NCBI GenBank assembly: GCA_017307505.1
Contig: JAFKEE010000048.1
Location: 1-64,000, forward strand
Length of the DNA: 64,000 bases
Direction: 5' to 3'
From: Acidobacteriota bacterium
GTDB lineage: Bacteria > Acidobacteriota > Terriglobia > Bryobacterales > Bryobacteraceae
Numbering within the stretch: the first letter of the stretch is position 1; each line of letters begins with the position of its first letter. Under the pieces are notes generated by a model. The model worked only from the letters and a program-made list of their open reading frames with translations. It ran no database searches and was not told where the DNA came from. A program made the translations under genes and the position numbers. Shown piece by piece: positions 276-40,476 of this stretch.

Positions 276-1556
276 TTACGGACCGGGTGGGCCTCGGCCT
301 CGTGTGCTTGGCGCTGGGTGCGTGTGGGGTTCGGAGTGGACGGGTGGCCCGCCGGTGAGGCTCCGGAGCTGAGGTTTGCGGGTTGTTTGGGTTGGGTTTG
401 TTTGCTCGTGGGGGTTGGATTGGGCGGGCCGGCTCGGGGTGGTGGTCTGCTGGCTTCGTGTCTTCGTTGAGGACTCGGCGGCAGACGGTGGATTGCGATC
501 TGGGCGTGGTTTGGGCGCCGAAGTTGGGTTTGTTCGCTCGTGGAGAGTGGATTGGACGCGACGGTTTGGGGTGGTGCTGGGGCTGAGCTTTGGCTGGTGG
601 GGGGATTGCGCTGCCGGCGTTGGGTTTGATCCCTCCGGGAGAGTGGATTGGGGCTCCGTGGCCCACTCTGTGGAAGACGCGAGGGGGACAGGCGCCCGCT
701 TACTAACGTGCGCGGTTCGCAGTGCGGGGGAGGGGCCTGGTTTGCGGGACCGGTTTAGGAAACGGAGGCTGAGGCCGGGGACTGTGGGGGGACGGATTGC
801 CTTGACGGCCTGCGGGGCTGGGACGGGGCGGACCGGTCGGAAGCCGGCTCTCGTGCTGAATAGGGATGAGCAGCCTCCGGCCGGCGGGTGGTTTCCGTTC
901 GTGGAGACGGCGGATGAGGGTGAGCCGGCATCGTCCGGTTGGCTGGACGGGCTGGGGTTCCACGACCCGATGGATTCGGATTGGTTGTCCATGCTGAAGG
1001 ATGTGCCGGAATTGGCTGCCATTTCGATGGGGCGGCTGGAGCCGGCGGCGGAGGCCAGGAGAGCTTGGGTCCGAGCGGGGATGGCGGTCTGGTGCGCTTC
1101 GTCTCCGATGATGTAGGGGAAGATCGACTTCTGAATGGCGCGAATGCGGACGCAGATCCAGGCGTGATAGCGGCCAAAGGCCTGAATGACTTCGGCGTGG
1201 TTTTCCCGGATCCAGAGGGAAGCATAGGGGACAACTCCGCTGTTGACACGAAGGGCTTCGGCCCAGAGCTTGCCTTCCAGTTGGAGGAGCCGGCGTTCGT
1301 GGCCGCGGAGCATGAGGCGATGGACGAACAGGGCGCGGAAGCGCGGGTCAGCGATGTCCGCGGTTTCCTCCAGCGCTTTGCGATAGAGGAGGTCCTCGAT
1401 CTCCTCGGGCAGGCGGTGGAACTTCGAGTATAGGTTGTGACGGCGTGCGTTCTGAGAGACGCGGCGCTTGCCTTCAGGCGTGCGAGGGCCGGTCGATTTC
1501 TGGGCGTTGGCGCGATTGGCGGCCAGGCGGGGCTCGGAGATGGGTTGCTTCGTCAT
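276..1556 (-). CDS. Hypothetical protein with 'ANRANAQKSTGPRT' N-terminal motif and repeat-bearing tail
   Basis: The 426-residue product has no function I can name. Residues 13-40 carry ANRANAQKSTGPRTPEGK followed by SQNARRHNL. I recognise this signature from uncharacterised proteins that recur in acidobacterial and planctomycete genomes. Residues 45-150 look like a charged helical domain. From about residue 185 the protein becomes a low-complexity Pro/Ser/Thr/Arg tail with three copies of an 11-residue unit (QSTLPEGSNPT, QSTLHERTNPT, QSNPHEQTNPT at 303, 335 and 379). There is no signal peptide or membrane segment. The strand was chosen because the conserved N-terminal motif is only on the minus strand; the long plus-strand frames opposite it look like composition artefacts. 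The exact C-terminal frame is less certain than the N-terminus. Confidence 0.65.
   Translation of the reverse strand: MTKQPISEPRLAANRANAQKSTGPRTPEGKRRVSQNARRHNLYSKFHRLPEEIEDLLYRKALEETADIADPRFRALFVHRLMLRGHERRLLQLEGKLWAEALRVNSGVVPYASLWIRENHAEVIQAFGRYHAWICVRIRAIQKSIFPYIIGDEAHQTAIPARTQALLASAAGSSRPIEMAANSGTSFSMDNQSESIGSWNPSPSSQPDDAGSPSSAVSTNGNHPPAGGCSSLFSTRAGFRPVRPVPAPQAVKAIRPPTVPGLSLRFLNRSRKPGPSPALRTAHVSKRAPVPLASSTEWATEPQSTLPEGSNPTPAAQSPHQPKLSPSTTPNRRVQSTLHERTNPTSAPKPRPDRNPPSAAESSTKTRSQQTTTPSRPAQSNPHEQTNPTQTTRKPQLRSLTGGPPVHSEPHTHPAPSTRGRGPPGP
390..650 (-). repeat. Three degenerate 33-bp repeats in the gene tail
   Basis: Similar units lie at 390-422, 522-554 and 618-650. On the plus strand each begins GTTGGGTTTG and ends near GGATTGG, or a close variant. 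The spacings are 132 and 96 bases. Similarity is visible at the nucleotide level, and the +1-shifted frame also reads as a repeat (for example PIHSPRANKPN), which points to duplication of DNA rather than protein-level convergence. A weaker, partial match at about 195-230 lies beyond the stop codon of the gene. Confidence 0.6.
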
Positions 1557-10408: not shown

Positions 10409-11071
10409 TCAGTACAGCCTGGGTCTGGGGCCTCCCAAATGAACGGGCAGGGCCTGGTTGCGCTCGCCGACGTAGGGCTGGGGACGGGCGCTCCAGGCGG
10501 CTAAGGCCAGGGCGAAGGCCATGTCGTCCGGGGTGGTGGATTTGGGATCACCTAAGCCACCCAATTCCGCGTAGAGGTCCTGGAGGTTGGGAAGGCCGGC
10601 CGGGATGCGCAGGGTTTGGGTTTCCAACAACACTCGCAGATTGTGGAGGAGCGCACTTCGGGGCACCGACACTGCGTGGCCCAGTTGGCCTACGGATTCT
10701 CCGCTTGTGATCACTATGGGCTCCAGGCGGACGGGCAGGGCCGCACGCTGGAGGTGGTCCACTACCGGCAGACCTACGCCCGTGGCGTCGATGGCCAGAT
10801 GCTTGACCGAGCGGTAGTGCGGCGTTCGGGCGTCCAGCCGCTCCAGATAGTTCGCCAGGAAGGGTGGGATGTTTGCATACGGCGTGCGCAAGGGCAGGCG
10901 GAAGATCGCTCGGAGGATCAACACCGTCTCTGTCTTCTGCACACGGTAGATGTGGTCGAACTCCCCCGTGGGCCTCGTGAGGTCCTCCAGACAGGCCAGA
11001 GCCGAGGGGTTGCGGCTGAAGCCGAGATCGAGCCCGAGATGGTAGGTGGAATGGGGGCTTGGTTTTCGCAT
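10409..11071 (-). CDS. Terminase-type nuclease domain protein
   Basis: The 220-residue product resembles the RNase H-fold nuclease half of phage terminase large subunits. It has an N-terminal acidic strand (YHLGLDLGFSRNPSALACLE), a second acidic motif (KHLAIDATGVGLPVVDHL) and a late acidic segment (TTPDDMAFALALAAW), which fit the three metal-binding positions of that fold. It lies 32 bases downstream of the ATPase half on the same strand, in a different frame. The nuclease frame stays open upstream of its ATG to about 11263, overlapping the end of the ATPase gene, so a single -1 shift would fuse the two. No other phage gene is nearby. The alternative is an unrelated RNase H-like nuclease. Confidence 0.7.
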   Translation of the reverse strand: MRKPSPHSTYHLGLDLGFSRNPSALACLEDLTRPTGEFDHIYRVQKTETVLILRAIFRLPLRTPYANIPPFLANYLERLDARTPHYRSVKHLAIDATGVGLPVVDHLQRAALPVRLEPIVITSGESVGQLGHAVSVPRSALLHNLRVLLETQTLRIPAGLPNLQDLYAELGGLGDPKSTTPDDMAFALALAAWSARPQPYVGERNQALPVHLGGPRPRLY

Positions 11072-11103
11072 GGGGTTACCTTTGGCACGCGTGAGCCTGG
11101 GCT

Positions 11104-12012
11104 TCAGGCGGCCGGCTCCTCCCGTTCGGCGGCTTCGGGTTCGGCGTCTGGGCCCGGGCCAGCCAGTAGAGCGTCGTCCTCTGCTCCGAAGAATGTCTCT
11201 CCGGGAAGAACTGCCTGATCGATGAGGTCGCGCGGGATGAGCTGGTATTCGGAAGGGCGGAATTCACAAAGGTATTCCTGAGCGAAGTCGTGCTCGCCGA
11301 GAGCGCGGCGCTCGGCGGCGAGGAAGTCCGGGCTGATGCGGGGGCAGGCGGTGGCCTTGACGGTAAAGCGGGCCCAGCCGGCGGAGGGGTCGTGCCATTC
11401 GCGGAAGAAGAAGCCGGACTGGCCAGCGGGCGTGGAGAGGATCCAGAGGCGGCCGTCGGAGATGGCGCGGGTGGGCCGGATGGCGGCATAGACCTTGTCC
11501 GGAATTTTGGCCGCTTCGTCGAGGATGAGGAACGAGACGTTGTCGAAGCCGCGGATGTTGGCTTCGCGGGCCGGAAGGCCGATGAGGGCGGAGCCGTTGG
11601 GGAGGAGGAGCGAGAGCGGATCGCGAGGATCGCGAGTGTAAGGCACTCCGGCGCGGCGCAGAAAGCGGGCGGCCTTCTGAAGGAAGATGCGGCTCTGGCG
11701 GAGGGACGGGCTCACGCAGAGCGTGAGGGTTTCCGGGGCGTTGAAGGCGTGGTAGAGGGCCATGAGGACCGTGACGGTGGACTTGCCCCACTGGCGCGTG
11801 CAGCAGAGGAGGACGCGGCGGGCGGGGGTGTCGAGGACCGCGGCCTGGGCGGGGTCCGGTGTGAACTGAAAGGTCTCGCGGACCCATTGCGAAGGCAGAA
11901 TAAGGGCGTCCGCCTGGGACGCGGCCTGCGTAGGGCCACCGGGTTCTTCGCCGGCGGGCGGGCAGTAGCGAAAGCGTGCCGCTGTCCTGTCATTCCATCT
12001 CACGATCGTCAT
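11104..12012 (-). CDS. Terminase large-subunit ATPase domain protein
   Basis: This 302-residue protein carries the packaging-ATPase half of a large terminase. A hydrophobic strand leads into the Walker A-like CCTRQWGKST. Walker B with its catalytic Glu is VSFLILDEAAKIPD, and the coupling motif is LWILSTPAG followed by FFREW. Terminases usually carry ATPase and nuclease in one chain of about 450-600 residues; here the chain ends after the ATPase part in an Ala/Glu/Pro-rich tail, and the nuclease is a separate downstream gene. The frame continues well upstream, but the ATG at 12012 follows a purine-rich GGAAGGAAG and starts the conserved part. No capsid, portal or small terminase genes are present, so this is a remnant or a domesticated pair, not an active prophage. 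Confidence 0.75.
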   Translation of the reverse strand: MTIVRWNDRTAARFRYCPPAGEEPGGPTQAASQADALILPSQWVRETFQFTPDPAQAAVLDTPARRVLLCCTRQWGKSTVTVLMALYHAFNAPETLTLCVSPSLRQSRIFLQKAARFLRRAGVPYTRDPRDPLSLLLPNGSALIGLPAREANIRGFDNVSFLILDEAAKIPDKVYAAIRPTRAISDGRLWILSTPAGQSGFFFREWHDPSAGWARFTVKATACPRISPDFLAAERRALGEHDFAQEYLCEFRPSEYQLIPRDLIDQAVLPGETFFGAEDDALLAGPGPDAEPEAAEREEPAA

Positions 12013-35117: not shown

Positions 35118-35522
35118 TCAACCGCGATCGGCGTCCGGGAAGAGGATGCGGCGATAGAGACTCTCGCGGATGGAGTCGCGCAGGTCCCAGGCCCGCATCT
35201 TCCGGAGGTGGCACTGGGAGCTGATAGCCCGGGCCAGTTCCTTCAGCGCACCAGCGAGGCGTTCCTCATCTTCATTGCGAAACTTGCGGCCAAATAGAGC
35301 CACGGGGCGAGGTTCTTCAATATGGGCCACTTCGTCCCCCCGGGAGAAGCTGAGGCACAGGCCGGACCAGCCCATGGTGCGGGCGTGGAAGAGGCTGAGC
35401 CGCACTCCATTCAGATGGGCGGAATAGACTCCGCCGTCCTCCAACTGCCACTCGAGAGGCGGCTGGGCGGCTTGCGTCGCATCAAGAAGGAACTGCGCAA
35501 CGTATAGATCAGAGACTGCCAT
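35118..35522 (-). CDS. Hypothetical protein downstream of the antiporter
   Basis: The 134-residue product is not recognised. It looks like a soluble mixed alpha/beta protein: a beta-rich centre (WQLEDGGVYSAHLNGVRLSL, GWSGLCLSFSRGDE) and a basic helical C-terminus (CHLRKMRAWDLRDSIRESLY). It starts seven bases after the antiporter stop; the frame is open further upstream through the antiporter gene but that part is a shadow. The tight spacing suggests co-expression with the antiporter. Confidence 0.65.
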   Translation of the reverse strand: MAVSDLYVAQFLLDATQAAQPPLEWQLEDGGVYSAHLNGVRLSLFHARTMGWSGLCLSFSRGDEVAHIEEPRPVALFGRKFRNEDEERLAGALKELARAISSQCHLRKMRAWDLRDSIRESLYRRILFPDADRG

Positions 35523-35529
35523 TGCAACC

Positions 35530-36699
35530 TCAATCGCCCACCGCGGGCGTCTGTCTATAGGCGAGATTGAGCAGCGGCGGCGCCACCAGCGTCGTGGCGA
35601 GGGCCGTAAATACGACAACTCCGTAGATTGGCCTGGAGACGGCGCCCATGGCCAAGCCCAGCTGAGCCACGACCATGCCGACCTCCCCGCGCGGCACCAT
35701 GCCGAAGCCGATGCGTACAGCGTCACGAAGCCCAAGACGGATGGCGCCGGCCCCACAGCCAAGAAGCTTGGAGACGACAGCGGCCAGCAGGACGATGACG
35801 GTGAGCAGAATCATGGACGAGTCCTTGAAGACCGAGAGGTCGATCTTCAGGCCGATACCCACGAGGAAGAACGGCACCAGGAGTTCAGTGGTGCCGTGGA
35901 CGAGGGTATGAACCCGTTTGCTGACGCTTTCCCCGAGGCTCATGCCGGCCAGGAAGGCGCCAACAATGGCCGCAACGCCCGTATACATGGAGACGACGGA
36001 GAGCGCAAAGAGGAGAATGATCGCCAGGTGGAACTGAGCCTCGCTGGCGCGGAGTCTCGCCTGCAAGGCAGGTACAGCCTTGCTGACCGTATGCGAACCC
36101 CATTTCGCCATGACGACCATGAAGACGATGGGCAGAACCGCGGTGAGACCGATATCGACGACCTTGATCTCTCCACGAGCCATGCTGCTGACCACCGCGA
36201 GGACAATCAAGCCCAGGACGTCGTCGATGACAGCGGCGGCGAGGATGATCTGGCTGGATTTCTCGTGCAGTTTGTTCCTGGCGCTCAGCACCTGGGCGGT
36301 GATGCCGACACTGGTGGCGACCAGGGCAGCTCCGACAAAGATCGATTCGATCTGACCGTACCCCCACGCTCGCAGAATCACCCAGCCCATGCCTAACGGT
36401 ACGAGGACGCCGATGATGGCCACGAGAAAGGCGGTGCCGCCTACCTTGAGCAGTTCGGAGGATTTCACCTCCAGCCCGACGTTGAAGAGGAGGAAGAGGA
36501 CTCCCAGTTCCGAGAGGTCCTGCAGGACAGGCACCGGGGCCACCCAGTGCAGCAGGCTCGGGCCAATGACGACGCCGGCGAGAATTTCTCCGACAAGGCC
36601 AGGCATGCCGAGGCGCTCGAAGATCTCAGAGAAGAGCTTCGCGGACGCAAAGACCACGAGCATCAGGACGGGGAGGGTCAACTCCGGTGGATGCGTCAT
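35530..36699 (-). CDS. CPA2-family cation:proton antiporter
   Basis: This 389-residue integral membrane transporter is of the monovalent cation:proton antiporter-2 group. It has about twelve to thirteen helices, including LGMPGLVGEILAGVVIGPSL, LSELGVLFLLFNVGLEVKSS, and AAAVIDDVLGLIVLAVVSSM with the paired Asp-Asp of the ion site. MVPRGEVGMVVAQLGLAMG lies in a late helix typical of KefB/NapA relatives. The protein ends after the membrane domain; there is no KTN/RCK regulatory domain as in KefB. Sodium or potassium/proton exchange is likely; the ion cannot be told from sequence. It is preceded by a small membrane protein gene and followed by a hypothetical gene on the same strand. Confidence 0.92.
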   Translation of the reverse strand: MTHPPELTLPVLMLVVFASAKLFSEIFERLGMPGLVGEILAGVVIGPSLLHWVAPVPVLQDLSELGVLFLLFNVGLEVKSSELLKVGGTAFLVAIIGVLVPLGMGWVILRAWGYGQIESIFVGAALVATSVGITAQVLSARNKLHEKSSQIILAAAVIDDVLGLIVLAVVSSMARGEIKVVDIGLTAVLPIVFMVVMAKWGSHTVSKAVPALQARLRASEAQFHLAIILLFALSVVSMYTGVAAIVGAFLAGMSLGESVSKRVHTLVHGTTELLVPFFLVGIGLKIDLSVFKDSSMILLTVIVLLAAVVSKLLGCGAGAIRLGLRDAVRIGFGMVPRGEVGMVVAQLGLAMGAVSRPIYGVVVFTALATTLVAPPLLNLAYRQTPAVGD

Positions 36700-36703
36700 T
36701 CGA

Positions 36704-36850
36704 CTAGGCGATGCGAGCTTTGCGCTTCTTCTGAAGATTCAGCAGCGCAGCGCCGGCGATGCCGATGAGAACGGGCAGAAAGGGCGCCCCGTGCATCACC
36801 AGAGCGAAGAAGGCGATGCAGGCCGCGATGTTGAACCAGAGCCAATTCAT
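36704..36850 (-). CDS. Small membrane protein, 48 residues
   Basis: The gene encodes 48 residues beginning MNWLWFNIAACIAFFALVMH, with a second hydrophobic stretch PFLPVLIGIAGAALLNL and a basic end KKRKARIA, so two short membrane spans with a cytoplasmic tail. GGAG lies six bases before the ATG. It is four bases upstream of the antiporter ATG and sixteen bases after the TPR-like gene, so it is probably part of the same transcript. Function unknown. Confidence 0.7.
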   Translation of the reverse strand: MNWLWFNIAACIAFFALVMHGAPFLPVLIGIAGAALLNLQKKRKARIA

Positions 36851-36866
36851 GGGAGTCTCCAGCAAC

Positions 36867-37397
36867 TCAATGGAATATCTTAACGGCGAGCATCAAGGCG
36901 GCTGCCATAAGCACCAACCAGGAGGCGGGCCGATCCAGTGGTTTCGTCCAGGCCGGTTTCTGTGTGCCTTCCCGGATGAGGCGCCGGATTTCCTGAAGCT
37001 GTTTGCGCGCCATCGCGATCTGGTAGCCATCTTCGGCGAGTTGGAGTGCCCGGGCGGTTTCCTCTTCGGCCCGCGGCAGCGCCCGAAGGCGATAGAGCAG
37101 TTCAGCAAACTTATACTGTGCCCAGAAGTAGTTGGGAGCTATGGCCCGTGCTTCTTCAAAGGCGTCCATGGAGCGGTACGCATCGTAGTTAACGGCATGG
37201 GCCATGCCGAGACACGTGCGGAGGTCGGGCGAATCCGGGTAGGCGGCGCAGGCCTCCTGCAAGCGCTGGATGATGGCTTTGATCTCCTCGGCAGGCACGG
37301 TATGAGGGTCGCGCCAGAGCTTAGGCAGCAAGGCAGGCAGGGGAGCGGGCGCCAATGGCGCCCGCTCGCTGCTCGACGGAATGACCGCGGTATTCAT
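36867..37397 (-). CDS. TPR-like protein with C-terminal membrane anchor
   Basis: The 176-residue product has a Pro/Ala-rich N-terminus (residues 1-25), a helical repeat region (IIQRLQEACAAYPDSPDLRT, MDAFEEARAIAPNYFWAQYK, AELLYRLRALPRAEEETARA) resembling two to three TPR units, a basic helix (ARKQLQEIRRLIREG) and a final hydrophobic stretch (WLVLMAAALMLAVKIFH). It is a tail-anchored protein with its soluble part probably in the cytoplasm. The start chosen, ATG 37397, is right after the amt stop at 37399. Upstream frame is a shadow of amt. The tight junction with amt suggests a role linked to ammonium uptake, but no function is known. Confidence 0.72.
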   Translation of the reverse strand: MNTAVIPSSSERAPLAPAPLPALLPKLWRDPHTVPAEEIKAIIQRLQEACAAYPDSPDLRTCLGMAHAVNYDAYRSMDAFEEARAIAPNYFWAQYKFAELLYRLRALPRAEEETARALQLAEDGYQIAMARKQLQEIRRLIREGTQKPAWTKPLDRPASWLVLMAAALMLAVKIFH

Positions 37398-37398
37398 G

Positions 37399-39054
37399 TT
37401 AGTGTGCACTCGCTTTGAGCTCGAACTCCGGATAACCAACTGCACCGACTTCCGGCAGGTCCAGCCCTTCCACTTCAGCTTTGGCCGAAACGCGCTGGCC
37501 CACCAGAACTTCGATGACCAGATTGGCCACGAAGGCGACGGTGAAGACAACCCCGAGCAGGGCGGAGACTCCCATCAACTGCGCGACCAGTTGTCCCGGA
37601 TCGCCATAAAACAGGCCGGTGACCGAGCCAGTGACGCCATTCCAGGAGCCGCCGTAATTGGATTTGCCGTCGGCGAACAGCCCGACGGAAATCACACCCC
37701 AGATCCCGTTGACACCGTGCACCGAAATGGCGCCCACCGGGTCGTCGATCTTCATCACCCGCTCGACGAACTCGACCGAGAGACACACAAGGACGCCGCC
37801 AATGAGCCCGATGATCACACTGCAGACCGGGTTGACGAATCCGGAGGGCGCCGTGATGGCGACCAACCCCGCGAGCAAGCCGTTGCCGGACATCGAGGAG
37901 TCGGGCTTGCCGTAGCGCATCCACATATAGAACATGGCGCCGAAGGAGCCGGCCATGCCTGCCAGCATGGTATTGACCGCCACGCTGCTGATGCGAAGAT
38001 TGCCGCTGCCCGAAGCACCCAGCGAAGATCCTGGGTTAAAGCCGAACCAGCCGAAGGCGAGGATGAAACAGCCGGTGAGAACCAGTACGATGTCATGCCC
38101 CGGCATGGCGTGCGGCCGGCCGTCGCGGTCGAATTTGCCGATGCGCGGTCCGACGATGATGGCAAGGACAAGCGCCGTGAGTCCGCCGACTGAATGAACT
38201 ACACCAGATCCGGCGAAGTCAGCATAGCCCTTACCGAGTCCGAAGTTGGTGCCGAGAGTCGCCAGCCAGCCGCCGCCCCAGGCCCAGTTCGCGAACACGG
38301 GGTAGATGAAAGCGCCCAACACAAACGAGGAAACCAGGAATGCGACATACTTCCAGCGTTCCGCGGCGGAGCCGGTGACGATCGTGAGGGCAGTGTCCAT
38401 GAAGACCATCTGGAACAGGAAGATCACCATAACGGCAACGTCGTAGCTGCCGTTGTGCATCAGAAAGAAGCCGTTTTGCCCAAAGAGGCCAAAGCTCTTG
38501 CCAAAGAGGGTGATGCTGAATTCGGAGTTCAGGACGGGCGAGCCCCCGAGGTTGCCGACGGCGCCGACACCGCCCATCTGCAGGGCGAAACCGATGAGCC
38601 AGTACGCCAACATACCGACACCGTAGACCATGAAGTTCATCATCATGGTGTGGTTCGCATTCTTGGCGCGGCAAAGCCCGGTTTCCACAATCGCGAATCC
38701 GGCCTGCATGAACATGACCATGAACCCGGCGACGAGCGTCCAGACGAAGTTGATGCCGATTTTGTTCTGGCCCACCTGGTTCACCAGGTCTGAAATGGTG
38801 AGGCCTTTCTTGGCGTCGGACACTGCCACGTCTGCGACCGTGCCGGTTATATTGCCATCGGGATCTCCCTTGGCACGGAGTTCTGCCTTGGGCGCTTCCA
38901 CTCCTTTCAGATCGGCATCGGTAATGGGGACCGCTGCGGGTGCGGCTGATGCAGCCGCGGCGGGAGGCGCGGCCGCGGGGGCAGCCGGAGTCTGCGCTGC
39001 GGCGGTGAGGGCAACGAGTAGCGTTGCGGCAAGGGTGAGCAGGCTTCTCTTCAT
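37399..39054 (-). CDS. amt: Ammonium transporter with a long periplasmic N-terminal extension
   Basis: This 551-residue Amt/Mep/Rh channel moves ammonium across the inner membrane. The pore histidines are in DFAGSGVVHSVGGLTALVLA and AISVHGVNGIWGVISVGLF, and the vestibule and membrane segments are as expected (NFVWTLVAGFMVMFMQAGFA, FGWFGFNPGSSLGASGSGN). The N-terminus is unusual: a signal peptide (residues 1-21), an Ala/Pro-rich linker to about residue 42 and some 65 more polar residues before the first helix, against about 20-30 in typical AmtB. No glnK gene follows; a TPR-like gene does. The ATG at 39054 has AAGAGGT upstream; an earlier ATG at 39081 is in frame but less well placed. Two small membrane protein genes precede it. 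Confidence 0.94.
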   Translation of the reverse strand: MKRSLLTLAATLLVALTAAAQTPAAPAAAPPAAAASAAPAAVPITDADLKGVEAPKAELRAKGDPDGNITGTVADVAVSDAKKGLTISDLVNQVGQNKIGINFVWTLVAGFMVMFMQAGFAIVETGLCRAKNANHTMMMNFMVYGVGMLAYWLIGFALQMGGVGAVGNLGGSPVLNSEFSITLFGKSFGLFGQNGFFLMHNGSYDVAVMVIFLFQMVFMDTALTIVTGSAAERWKYVAFLVSSFVLGAFIYPVFANWAWGGGWLATLGTNFGLGKGYADFAGSGVVHSVGGLTALVLAIIVGPRIGKFDRDGRPHAMPGHDIVLVLTGCFILAFGWFGFNPGSSLGASGSGNLRISSVAVNTMLAGMAGSFGAMFYMWMRYGKPDSSMSGNGLLAGLVAITAPSGFVNPVCSVIIGLIGGVLVCLSVEFVERVMKIDDPVGAISVHGVNGIWGVISVGLFADGKSNYGGSWNGVTGSVTGLFYGDPGQLVAQLMGVSALLGVVFTVAFVANLVIEVLVGQRVSAKAEVEGLDLPEVGAVGYPEFELKASAH

Positions 39055-39061
39055 TCCGCGG

Positions 39062-39244
39062 TTACCTCTTCCAGATCGCATTCTTCACGTAGGCCTGATT
39101 GATGACGCCGATAATGCCCACCAGACTGATGGCGATTCCGGCGAGGACCATGCCCATCCTGGCGCCCGTGGAGGATGCCAATGAGAGACTGAGAAGGCTC
39201 AGCACGAAGCCGGCCAAAGTGATGAGAAGACCAACGTAAACCAT
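39062..39244 (-). CDS. Small membrane protein, 60 residues
   Basis: This 60-residue protein has two hydrophobic helices (VYVGLLITLAGFVLSLLSLS and MGMVLAGIAISLVGIIGVIN) joined by a short polar turn, with a basic C-terminus (KNAIWKR). AAAGGAA lies seven bases before the ATG. It lies just upstream of amt on the same strand; its stop is seven bases before the amt ATG. Not recognised, but the spacing and ribosome-binding site make it a real gene and probably co-expressed with amt. Confidence 0.75.
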   Translation of the reverse strand: MVYVGLLITLAGFVLSLLSLSLASSTGARMGMVLAGIAISLVGIIGVINQAYVKNAIWKR

Positions 39245-39277
39245 GTGGGATTCCTTTGTGTCCTTTCCGCCGACCGG

Positions 39278-39457
39278 CTAGCCTTCGAGGTGTTCGAGGG
39301 GTTTGGCTTTCAGGAAAACAGCGACCGAGGCGCCAAGCAGCACCAGACCGATCAGCATGAACAACACACTGCCTCCACTGAAGAGGCCAGCGCCAATGAA
39401 GACAAAGGCGACGAGAAATAGAAGGAACGCGAGCGCCTGGGTTGGGTTGGCACCCAT
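39278..39457 (-). CDS. Small membrane protein, 59 residues
   Basis: The product starts MGANPTQALAFLLFLVAFVF, continues through IGAGLFSGGSVLFMLIGLVL and ends in KAKPLEHLEG, giving two membrane helices with a charged tail. GGAGG lies six bases before the ATG, a near-perfect ribosome-binding site. It leads the amt operon, 33 bases before the next small gene. No function is known to me; together with the 60-residue protein it may form a small membrane pair associated with ammonium transport. Confidence 0.72.
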   Translation of the reverse strand: MGANPTQALAFLLFLVAFVFIGAGLFSGGSVLFMLIGLVLLGASVAVFLKAKPLEHLEG

Positions 39458-39595
39458 GAGAGACCTCCAATGAGCAACTGGGATTTCGCGAGCGTGACGG
39501 GAGACCCGGCGTTGGGGTCAACAAGCGCTACGTGGCTTGTGCTGGATGAACTGGCCAGCTTGGTTTCTCAGTTTAGGTAAGGAAAGTAGGGAGTG

Positions 39596-39616
39596 CCAAT
39601 CAATAATTTTGATTGG
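39596..39616. promoter_or_regulatory. 8-bp AT-centred inverted repeat upstream of the amt operon
   Basis: CCAATCAA at 39596-39603 and TTGATTGG at 39609-39616 are exact inverted repeats around TAATT. The site is 139 bases before the first small gene of the amt operon and 48 bases after the HD-domain stop. It could be an operator for the amt operon or a hairpin at the end of the HD-domain transcript; no T-run follows. Confidence 0.35.
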
Positions 39617-39664
39617 TTTGATCGTAGGGAACAGGGACTAAACGATAGCTATCTTATTGACAGA

Positions 39665-40246
39665 TCAGGGGGCTACGCGAGCGAGTCCAAGCTCGTCCGC
39701 CCTCGCCTGCATAGCCTGGATGCAGAACTCAATGTGGGCATCGAGATCTACATTCATCCCCGCGGCACCGTTGATAATATCCTCACGATTCACGGCCCGG
39801 GCGAAAGCTTTGTCCTTCATCTTCTTGCGGACGCCTTTGACTTCCACGTCAAGAATCGACCGGGTGGGTTTGACGTAGGAGATGGCCGTGAGGAATCCGG
39901 CCAGTTCGTCGCAGGCGAAGAGGGTCTTCTCGAGCAGGGATTCGCGAGGTACGCCGGTGAAATCGGCGTGGGAGAGGATGGCGCGGCGGATCTCGTCGTT
40001 GACTCCGCGTTCCTTGAGGATCGCCTCCCCTTTGACCGGGTGGTCTGGGAGTTGAGGGTGGATCTCCCAGTCGAAATCGTGCAGCAGGGCGGTGACGGAC
40101 CAGGTCTCGAGGTCGACGTTGTGTCCTTCGGCCGCGAACTTGTGGGCGTAGGCAAGTACGCAGGCTTCGACGGCGAGGGAGTGGCGGCGGAGGGCGTCGT
40201 TCTGGATGAACTCGCAAACGATGGACCAAGCTTGATCGCGATTCAT
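39665..40246 (-). CDS. HD-domain hydrolase
   Basis: This 193-residue metal-dependent phosphohydrolase has the HD superfamily pattern: His22 in LRRHSLAVEACVLAYAHKF, the HD pair at 56-57 in ALLHDFDWEIHP, His92 in AILSHADFTGVP and a later Asp in FACDELAGFLTA. The LHDFDWEIHP form is typical of a small group of HDIG-type hydrolases found near nucleotide or tRNA genes. The substrate is unknown. Transcribed leftward away from tRNA-Ala, with no clear operon partner. Confidence 0.88.
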   Translation of the reverse strand: MNRDQAWSIVCEFIQNDALRRHSLAVEACVLAYAHKFAAEGHNVDLETWSVTALLHDFDWEIHPQLPDHPVKGEAILKERGVNDEIRRAILSHADFTGVPRESLLEKTLFACDELAGFLTAISYVKPTRSILDVEVKGVRKKMKDKAFARAVNREDIINGAAGMNVDLDAHIEFCIQAMQARADELGLARVAP

Positions 40247-40311
40247 GAGATCTTGAGTCCATAGTAGCGAACAGCCGATGGGCGATGTTATATTGGGGAA
40301 GTCGAGTCTGT

Positions 40312-40387
40312 GGGCCTGTGGCGCAGTTGGGAGCGCGCTTCCATGGCATGGAAGAGGTCGTGAGTTCGAATCTCACCAGGTCCACCA
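40312..40387 (+). tRNA. tRNA-Ala (GGC)
   Basis: The 76-base cloverleaf can be folded by eye. The acceptor stem is GGGCCTG with CAGGTCC (one G-U pair), the D stem GCGC/GCGC around AGTTGGGA, the anticodon stem CTTCC/GGAAG around ATGGCAT with anticodon GGC, the variable loop AGGTC, and the T stem GTGAG/CTCAC around TTCGAAT. The CCA end is encoded. It reads GCC alanine codons. No integrase or attachment-site duplication was seen next to it. Confidence 0.95.
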
Positions 40388-40476
40388 ATCCCCTTACAAT
40401 TCAATTCGTTCTGACGCCGAAGAGCCTTAGTGTTTTCGGGTTACGACCCACAACGGGATCGCTTCGCCGCGGGGCC

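Follow-up and report, generated by a model that had tools for sequence, protein, structure and literature searches.

Two neighbouring genes of the window, by which the whole 64,000-nucleotide stretch of contig JAFKEE010000048.1 (a Bryobacteraceae assembly, GCA_017307505.1) is meant, encode the ATPase and the nuclease of a terminase large subunit (TerL), the DNA-packaging enzyme of tailed phages, as two separate proteins, P0001 and P0002. Our explanation, for and against which the evidence seems about evenly balanced, is that a packaging motor and its nuclease, phage-derived, have turned into a chromosomal module of Bryobacterales that has no capsid, is made as two proteins and acts on DNA, perhaps in defence. 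The parts of this explanation differ in strength. The domestication of a packaging motor is well supported, whereas motor and nuclease activities would follow from what is known of the family and from the catalytic residues that are kept. A defence role of the module is suggested by its neighbours in other genomes, and for the window's own copy, which has no cas gene and no gene of the putative partner family S beside it, such a role could be proposed only by kinship.

P0001 matches the Pfam family Terminase_6N above the family cut-off (expectation value, E, 1.4e-7) and phrog_7579, annotated as 'terminase large subunit' (E 6.9e-45), and its family profile also hits the solved ATPase 4zni (1.8e-21) and T4 Gp17 (3ezk). 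P0002 matched no Pfam family; it matches phrog_27743 (E 6e-20), its family profile matches the solved TerL nucleases 5m1q (4e-16) and 5tge (8e-16), and its predicted structure (model confidence, pLDDT, 89) resembles the nuclease domains of herpes simplex virus (HSV) pUL15 and SPP1 G2P (E 7e-5 to 1.2e-4, template modelling (TM) score ~0.5). The family phrog_27743, listed as of 'unknown function', is probably itself the nuclease half of TerL. Walker A, Walker B and the coupling motif of the TerL ATPase domain are all present in P0001 (R73, G76, K77, D165, E166, S193 and T194), as is, in P0002, the RNase H-fold nuclease domain with its three metal-binding acids (D15, D95 and D183), and these residues are nearly invariant among relatives. 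The original prediction had described separate ATPase and nuclease genes with intact motifs here, and both genes and motifs are confirmed. The pair thus shares both domains and the catalytic residues with tailed-phage TerL of the P74-26/G20c/SPP1/T4 type (the phage names for the Protein Data Bank entries 4zni, 5m1f and 5tge being those that we presume), but it differs in being two chromosomal genes rather than one polypeptide, with no capsid or portal genes found and with S in the family in place of a recognisable small terminase subunit (TerS).

It had also been noted that a -1 shift would join the halves, since the nuclease gene can be read back without a stop as far as about 11263. This frame, which is -1 to that of the ATPase, is indeed open, for 160 bp beneath the end of the ATPase gene; the proposed joining, however, finds no conservation, since the frame offset is 2 in the window, 1 in the close relative L036 and 0 in both L035 and L040, and all three offsets occur over 70 cellular loci (29, 23 and 18 loci). 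The nuclease gene has its own ATG, 32 bp past the ATPase stop and preceded by AAAGG, and a Shine–Dalgarno-like site lies before the nuclease in 42 of the 70 loci. The closest relatives of the pair, L036 and L037, belong to two genomes of the same genus and both retain both genes. The ratio of nonsynonymous to synonymous substitution rates (dN/dS), a check suggested from the outset, is 0.059 for the ATPase and 0.051 for the nuclease between the window and L037, and 0.138 and 0.065, respectively, between the window and L036, while the orthologues L035 and L040 give 0.069 and 0.066. Moreover, all seven ATPase sites are kept in 100 of 103 cellular copies (with either D or E accepted at 165), and the three nuclease sites are intact in each of the 85 copies scored. 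Sequencing error or a frameshift is ruled out by the frame offsets, the close relatives and dN/dS, a conserved programmed -1 frameshift product by the varying frame relation, and decay of this copy by a dN/dS of 0.05–0.14 together with the kept catalytic residues. Neither breakage of a gene nor a conserved frameshift therefore explains the window pair. Of the two possibilities first raised, a domesticated DNA-handling pair and a decaying terminase, the former stands, owing to the conserved split, the purifying selection, the lack of capsid genes among those found and a place in the tree apart from viral TerLs, and the latter does not.

The features of the window that bear on the pair are collected below.

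Table. Position of the terminase gene pair and of related features in the window
Feature	Coordinates	Strand	Basis or remark
P0001, gene for TerL ATPase (packaging motor), 302 amino acids	11104..12012	-	Pfam, PHROG, profile, residues
P0002, gene for TerL RNase H-type nuclease, 220 amino acids	10409..11071	-	phrog_27743, profile, predicted fold
32-bp gap from ATPase stop to nuclease ATG; AAAGG at 11079-11083 is the likely ribosome-binding site	11072..11103	-	
Nuclease (-1) frame also open beneath the 3' end of the ATPase gene	11104..11263	-	frameshift not conserved
Noncoding stretch 3' of the pair, still alike in the nearest relative L037	10266..10408	.	
P0003, member of S (putative partner family), ~9-10 kb from the pair	276..1556	-	outside the 2.5 kb taken as adjacent

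The two-gene arrangement, which the original prediction proposed to seek across relatives, recurs widely. The set of 101 genomes consisted of the window's own genome (G000) and 100 relatives, and matches occur in 34 of them, 26 of the same family; in the other eight, the matches are weak throughout (E 2e-5 to 7e-10) and lie in longer frames. The number of copies per genome differs even inside one family, from none to about 11 loci (in G012), and many family members have no match; G000 itself holds a second split pair, L035, on its contig C11. A genome-wide search of 84,980 species genomes gave 230 matches, and the best 80 comprise 78 from Acidobacteriota, one from Verrucomicrobiales and one Nevskia record; 48 of the 78 are assigned to Bryobacterales, 28 are without an order and two belong to Terriglobales. 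The 103 cellular loci compared, which are non-identical ATPase sequences among which near-copies remain, include 81 split modules (a class that takes in loci with wide gaps or a broken nuclease, e.g., L048 and L153), 15 fused ones and seven without a detected nuclease, the fused and split states needing eight changes on the tree. Homologues are thus far from always being single full-length terminases within prophages. Some copies, moreover, stay in place: L035 and its counterpart L040 in G006 share gene order with 80–83% DNA identity over ~11 kb, which indicates that the pair was inherited in place, and L147 and L069 are further copies that are stable at orthologous sites.

The cellular modules seem to form a lineage of their own. 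When 193 rows, viral and phage ones included, were reduced to 167 differing ATPases, the 103 cellular rows fell on one side of a branch of the tree and the 64 viral and phage rows on the other, so that the label requires one change, against ~51 in shuffles. Among 62 viral loci (from the best 80 of 175 matches of the viral search), 47 are split, 14 have one long frame and one has no nuclease; thus, a single polypeptide does not define the wider family. Because the related uncultivated phage contigs of IMG/VR (L034, L157–L235) are split as well, with ATPase and nuclease encoded apart and arranged in the order found here (and a 4-bp overlap in 11 of 37 scored), the two-gene form is probably of viral origin and not an accident of the window's genome. 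Unlike the cellular modules, these viral pairs stand beside head and TerS families, often have a helix-turn-helix-like gene upstream (by eye), show no S match and lie on the other side of the tree. The nearest annotated phage ATPases are the TerLs of Thermus phage Riverbug and Meiothermus phages MMP17 and MMP7, with 42–44% identity over 73–81% of P0001; these differ from the window pair in that the Riverbug TerL is one gene of 417 amino acids, followed by TerS, portal and head genes, and that of MMP17 is one gene of 415 amino acids, upstream of head genes.

Genes for a phage particle are what the surroundings of the cellular modules seem to lack. The PHROG neighbour scans covered 114 of 117 listed open reading frames (ORFs) at 17 cellular loci and 78 of 168 ORFs at 6 of 12 viral loci, and 25 families are listed per neighbour scan, out of 55 and 103 (PHROG, cellular and viral), 108 and 96. 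Head, head–tail adaptor, protease and TerS families are among the matches listed around the six viral split TerLs, whereas no phage structural family is among those listed for the cellular loci; nor was the clustering of head, tail and integration genes that marks a prophage found there, among the same matches. The original prediction's remark that no phage gene is nearby thus agrees with the absence of structural and integration genes from the listed matches of the neighbour ORFs, those of the window included. Moreover, when the 78 viral neighbour proteins were compared with 115 cellular loci (1.185 Mb), only one matched (E 1e-5). In whole genomes, the capsid family PF05065 was found in one of six (G005) and the portal family PF04860 in none of six, controls matching in 4 of 14 genomes for each; G000 had no match to either at E 0.001, and other capsid and portal families were not covered. 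A search of whole genomes with phrog_332 gave no match, its control being equally silent.

In many phages, TerS lies just upstream of TerL (in Riverbug, it is annotated downstream). In the cellular modules, the family S holds this TerS-like place without visible kinship to TerS. Its members carry (R)ANGAxSRGPxTxEGKxRSSxNAxKHGL as an N-terminal motif and, after it, a domain of long helices (model pLDDT 86). An S gene lies within 2.5 kb in 55 of the 103 loci and is upstream of the ATPase in all 55, being divergent in 27 and on the same strand in 28, orientations that come close to two groups on the tree (two changes). Since genomes contain 28–67 S matches each, adjacency was set against chance: S is adjacent in 9 of 11 loci of G012 (~6e-15) and in 4 of 5 of G036 (~7e-8), as well as in 3 of 4 of G006, 2 of 4 of G005 and 0 of 2 of G000. 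The dN/dS of S exceeds that of the ATPase in six of the seven pairs measured for both (0.11–0.40 against 0.04–0.32). No match of S was found in Pfam, PHROG or solved structures, nor did profiles match it to 12 viral genes that occupy the corresponding position upstream; fold searches returned nothing with E <0.001, with a phage TerS or two at E ~1, no better than unrelated rows. S-family genes are also dispersed repeats themselves, in units of ~1.1 kb in G005 (L243–L245; 90–96% identical) and of 2.3–2.8 kb in G006 (L236–L239; 88–95% identical), with unlike flanks in both genomes and no terminase gene seen in the units.

A subset of the modules stands at the head of clustered regularly interspaced short palindromic repeats (CRISPR)-Cas loci. 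In-line cas genes follow the nuclease in 9 of the 103 loci (L045, L046, L047, L071, L075, L084, L096, L097 and L144) and a CRISPR array in one (L094), the next ORF or array beginning 87–327 bp past the nuclease stop in eight of the ten and 837 and 1908 bp past it in the other two. Longer stretches reveal complete systems: G036:C37 reads ATPase, nuclease, Cas3, Cas8a, Cas7, Cas5a, Cas1, Cas2, Cas4 and a 62-repeat array; G036:C1 has ATPase, nuclease, Cas3g, more ORFs resembling type I-G genes and an array; G045:C229 carries Cas10c, a Cmr6-like gene, RT-Cas1 (RT, reverse transcriptase) and a 26-repeat array; and G028:C38 carries the Csm4 of the III-D model and RT-Cas1. By the best PADLOC model, the types at modules are I, I-G, III-C and III-D. 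These unlike types and the nine changes that the linked label needs on the tree for ten loci suggest, within the limits of a weakly resolved tree, that the association has arisen several times. All ten linked loci belong to the class with divergent S (10 of 27, against 0 of 76), L045 by a partial S match. In 23 control stretches (348 kb, from the same genomes and non-random), the only cas matches were two to RT; an RT also lies near L063, which is not counted among the ten. Four Cas6 matches of a second PADLOC scan were assigned to loci by sequence comparison (L047 also by genome search). The ten modules resemble CRISPR-Cas accessory genes in preceding in-line cas genes or an array; they differ in that modules are not core cas genes and have no PADLOC match, and most, the window's included, lie outside CRISPR loci. 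CRISPR loci can dispense with the module, just as most modules dispense with CRISPR.

If the activities are those of the family, the ATPase would form a ring and move along double-stranded DNA driven by ATP, with no capsid to fill, and the nuclease would act with it and cut double-stranded DNA. S, in place of TerS, could serve as a recognition, targeting or regulatory subunit, and the most likely use of the module would be an attack on phage or other foreign DNA, or its processing, alone or, in some lineages, as an accessory of CRISPR-Cas. A more specific proposal, which we hold tentatively and consider distinctly less likely than the general one, is a capsid-less immune module in which a split terminase and a new recognition subunit, S, work alone or as a plug-in heading CRISPR-Cas systems of several unrelated types, and would travel along invading DNA and cut it, either to destroy it or to capture spacers.

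Several observations weigh against such a module, in whole or in its defensive part. The window pair has no S within 2.5 kb and no adjoining cas genes, and P0001, P0002 and S gave no useful match to PADLOC defence models (six proteins, best E 0.025). S is unmatched to TerS by profile, sequence and fold. A downstream CRISPR link is absent from 93 of the 103 relatives, although in many the contig stops shortly after the module: sequence extends 2.6 kb on both sides in 70 of 103 and 4 kb downstream in 42 of 103, and where a contig ends inside 4 kb a missing S or cas gene often carries no weight. The second PADLOC scan took in-line downstream ORFs only (90 of the 93), and the cas reference set for the flank comparison was drawn partly from the linked loci themselves. 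At L090, L107 and L139, cas-like genes lie 3–5 kb away on the opposite flank and point the opposite way; these are not among the ten and, therefore, 9 of 12 cas-bearing loci are in line, not all. At L045, the ORF that comes next has no name, and 3.8 kb separate the ATPase from the first cas gene that was recognised. Cas6 was found in 23 of 26 genomes (its model matched none of 14 control genomes), with only one position, G056:C397, by a module, although split contigs can hide neighbours; most CRISPR loci are thus without a module, which counts against a general role. The Fisher value for the restriction of linked loci to the divergent class (p 3.6e-7) treats related loci as independent, as do the tree values; the branch between cells and viruses has low support (31), and the tree has many weak branches, 64 of 164 being open. 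Furthermore, ATPase dN/dS over 16 locus pairs ranges from 0.04 to 0.52, the highest in the fused pair L038/L062, so that constraint is not equally strong everywhere. Finally, according to published data on Solibacter Ellin6076, this strain has two terminases in the table of Eichorst et al. (2018; PMC5900883), and its genome paper (PMC3174227) reports that it lacks CRISPR arrays and has only three cas genes.

The main rival is a selfish or satellite-like mobile element, whose terminase would pack the element or host DNA into helper-phage capsids and so spread it between cells; we regard it as unlikely, but it takes its place as chief competitor from the dispersal of the copies and the duplication of some of them in one genome at unlike flanks, which also tells against a domesticated module. 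Such duplicates are L115/L126 (2.4 kb, 91.7%), L071/L075 and L097/L099/L101; the closest pairs in G005, G006 and G000 have different flanks as well, some copies in several genomes contain fragments and stops, and the repeats formed by S-family genes would suit an element. Against it, apart from S and shadow frames no neighbour family occurs in more than 4 of 22 stretches compared, and inspection by eye of the copy ends in three groups showed neither terminal repeats nor target duplications. No clean empty site was found for the L053 module, its flank ending at the same place in three genomes that each continue unrelated, and in a check for tRNA-linked insertion, tRNAs occurred in 4 of 30 module loci, ~4–9 kb away. 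The orthologous copies L035/L040 and L147/L069 speak for stability rather than movement, and random insertion would rarely place nine of 12 cas-bearing loci downstream and in line. Host DNA maintenance unrelated to phages, e.g., the processing of replication or repair intermediates, would agree with purifying selection and with the vertical inheritance of some copies; a copy number from none to ~11 inside one family, with many members lacking any match, makes it improbable.

Three further explanations keep the terminase closer to a phage. Terminases are parts of gene transfer agents (GTAs), and a GTA or defective particle with its capsid genes elsewhere in the genome could draw on the single PF05065 gene of G005; it is quite improbable, given the absence of PF05065 from five of six genomes and of PF04860 from all six, within the coverage stated above, and several divergent terminase copies per genome would not be expected of it. 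A leftover, decaying terminase of a prophage is very improbable, a shade more so than the GTA: fragmentary copies in several genomes and a probable insertion sequence between the genes of L037 could be read as decay, which for this copy is contradicted by the low dN/dS and the kept catalytic residues, and the shared non-phage neighbour S and the lack of phage structural families among the matches listed do not fit a remnant. The least probable, with hardly any chance left to it, is a single full-length TerL made by programmed -1 frameshifting or split by a sequencing frameshift. The open frame beneath the ATPase end is what invites it; the offset differs even among close relatives, the nuclease has its own start and a likely ribosome-binding site, and the split recurs in independent assemblies.

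Terminases are regarded as a hallmark of tailed viruses and serve in prophage counts. A long-lived capsid-less chromosomal lineage would mislead such counts and would show that the packaging motor can be reused by cells. Its recurrence at the head of CRISPR loci of types I and III turns a role of motor and nuclease in interference or spacer acquisition into a testable proposal, and phrog_27743 and S, two families without an assigned function, gain a likely context. Table 1 of Eichorst et al. (2018; PMC5900883) gives two terminases for Solibacter usitatus and one for Bryobacter aggregatus, with capsid and portal 'not detected', whereas KBS 96, the third strain of that subdivision, has a terminase, capsids (4) and portals (2); there, terminases are read as marks of likely active prophages and not, as here, as a separate module. 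The account of phage genes in the Solibacter genome paper (PMC3174227) reports no intact or degenerate prophages and scattered phage-related genes. The terminase counts of the former and the prophage findings of the latter, as far as these sections go, fit the reading of a domesticated module. The inteins described in cyanophage TerL (PMC7156551), as presented in that paper, are not the same thing. A literature search, with subscription papers mostly outside its scope, turned up neither a chromosomal terminase module without capsid genes nor a terminase linked to CRISPR.

Some minor observations concern individual loci. The segment 10266–10328 of the noncoding stretch 3' of the pair is repeated a second time in L037, and in that locus (L037:10375–12114, G005) a probable insertion sequence, recognised by eye, lies between ATPase and nuclease and truncates the ATPase end; its ends show short inverted repeats, and a short duplication of the target can probably be made out. 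Window positions 35122–40390, which end just past a tRNA-Ala (40312–40387), are syntenic with L041:11662–16911 in G005, which there flanks another terminase module, and the neighbourhood may therefore be a variable hot spot. Scattered ATPase and nuclease fragments with S genes near occur at G005:C3:3420800–3439400 (L059 and L060) and may represent a graveyard of copies of the module. In L068 (6722–7324 and 8176–8898), L177 and L193, a single ATPase gene has two nuclease genes after it. A homologous large gene is found near three modules (L063:5606–8089, L138 and L043), which by its resemblance we take to be perhaps a STAND or effector-associated conflict system, and downstream of other modules, ORFs that look defence-like by eye include a helicase/PLD-type pair (L140:6027–8746) and a HEPN-like protein (L082:5270–5695).

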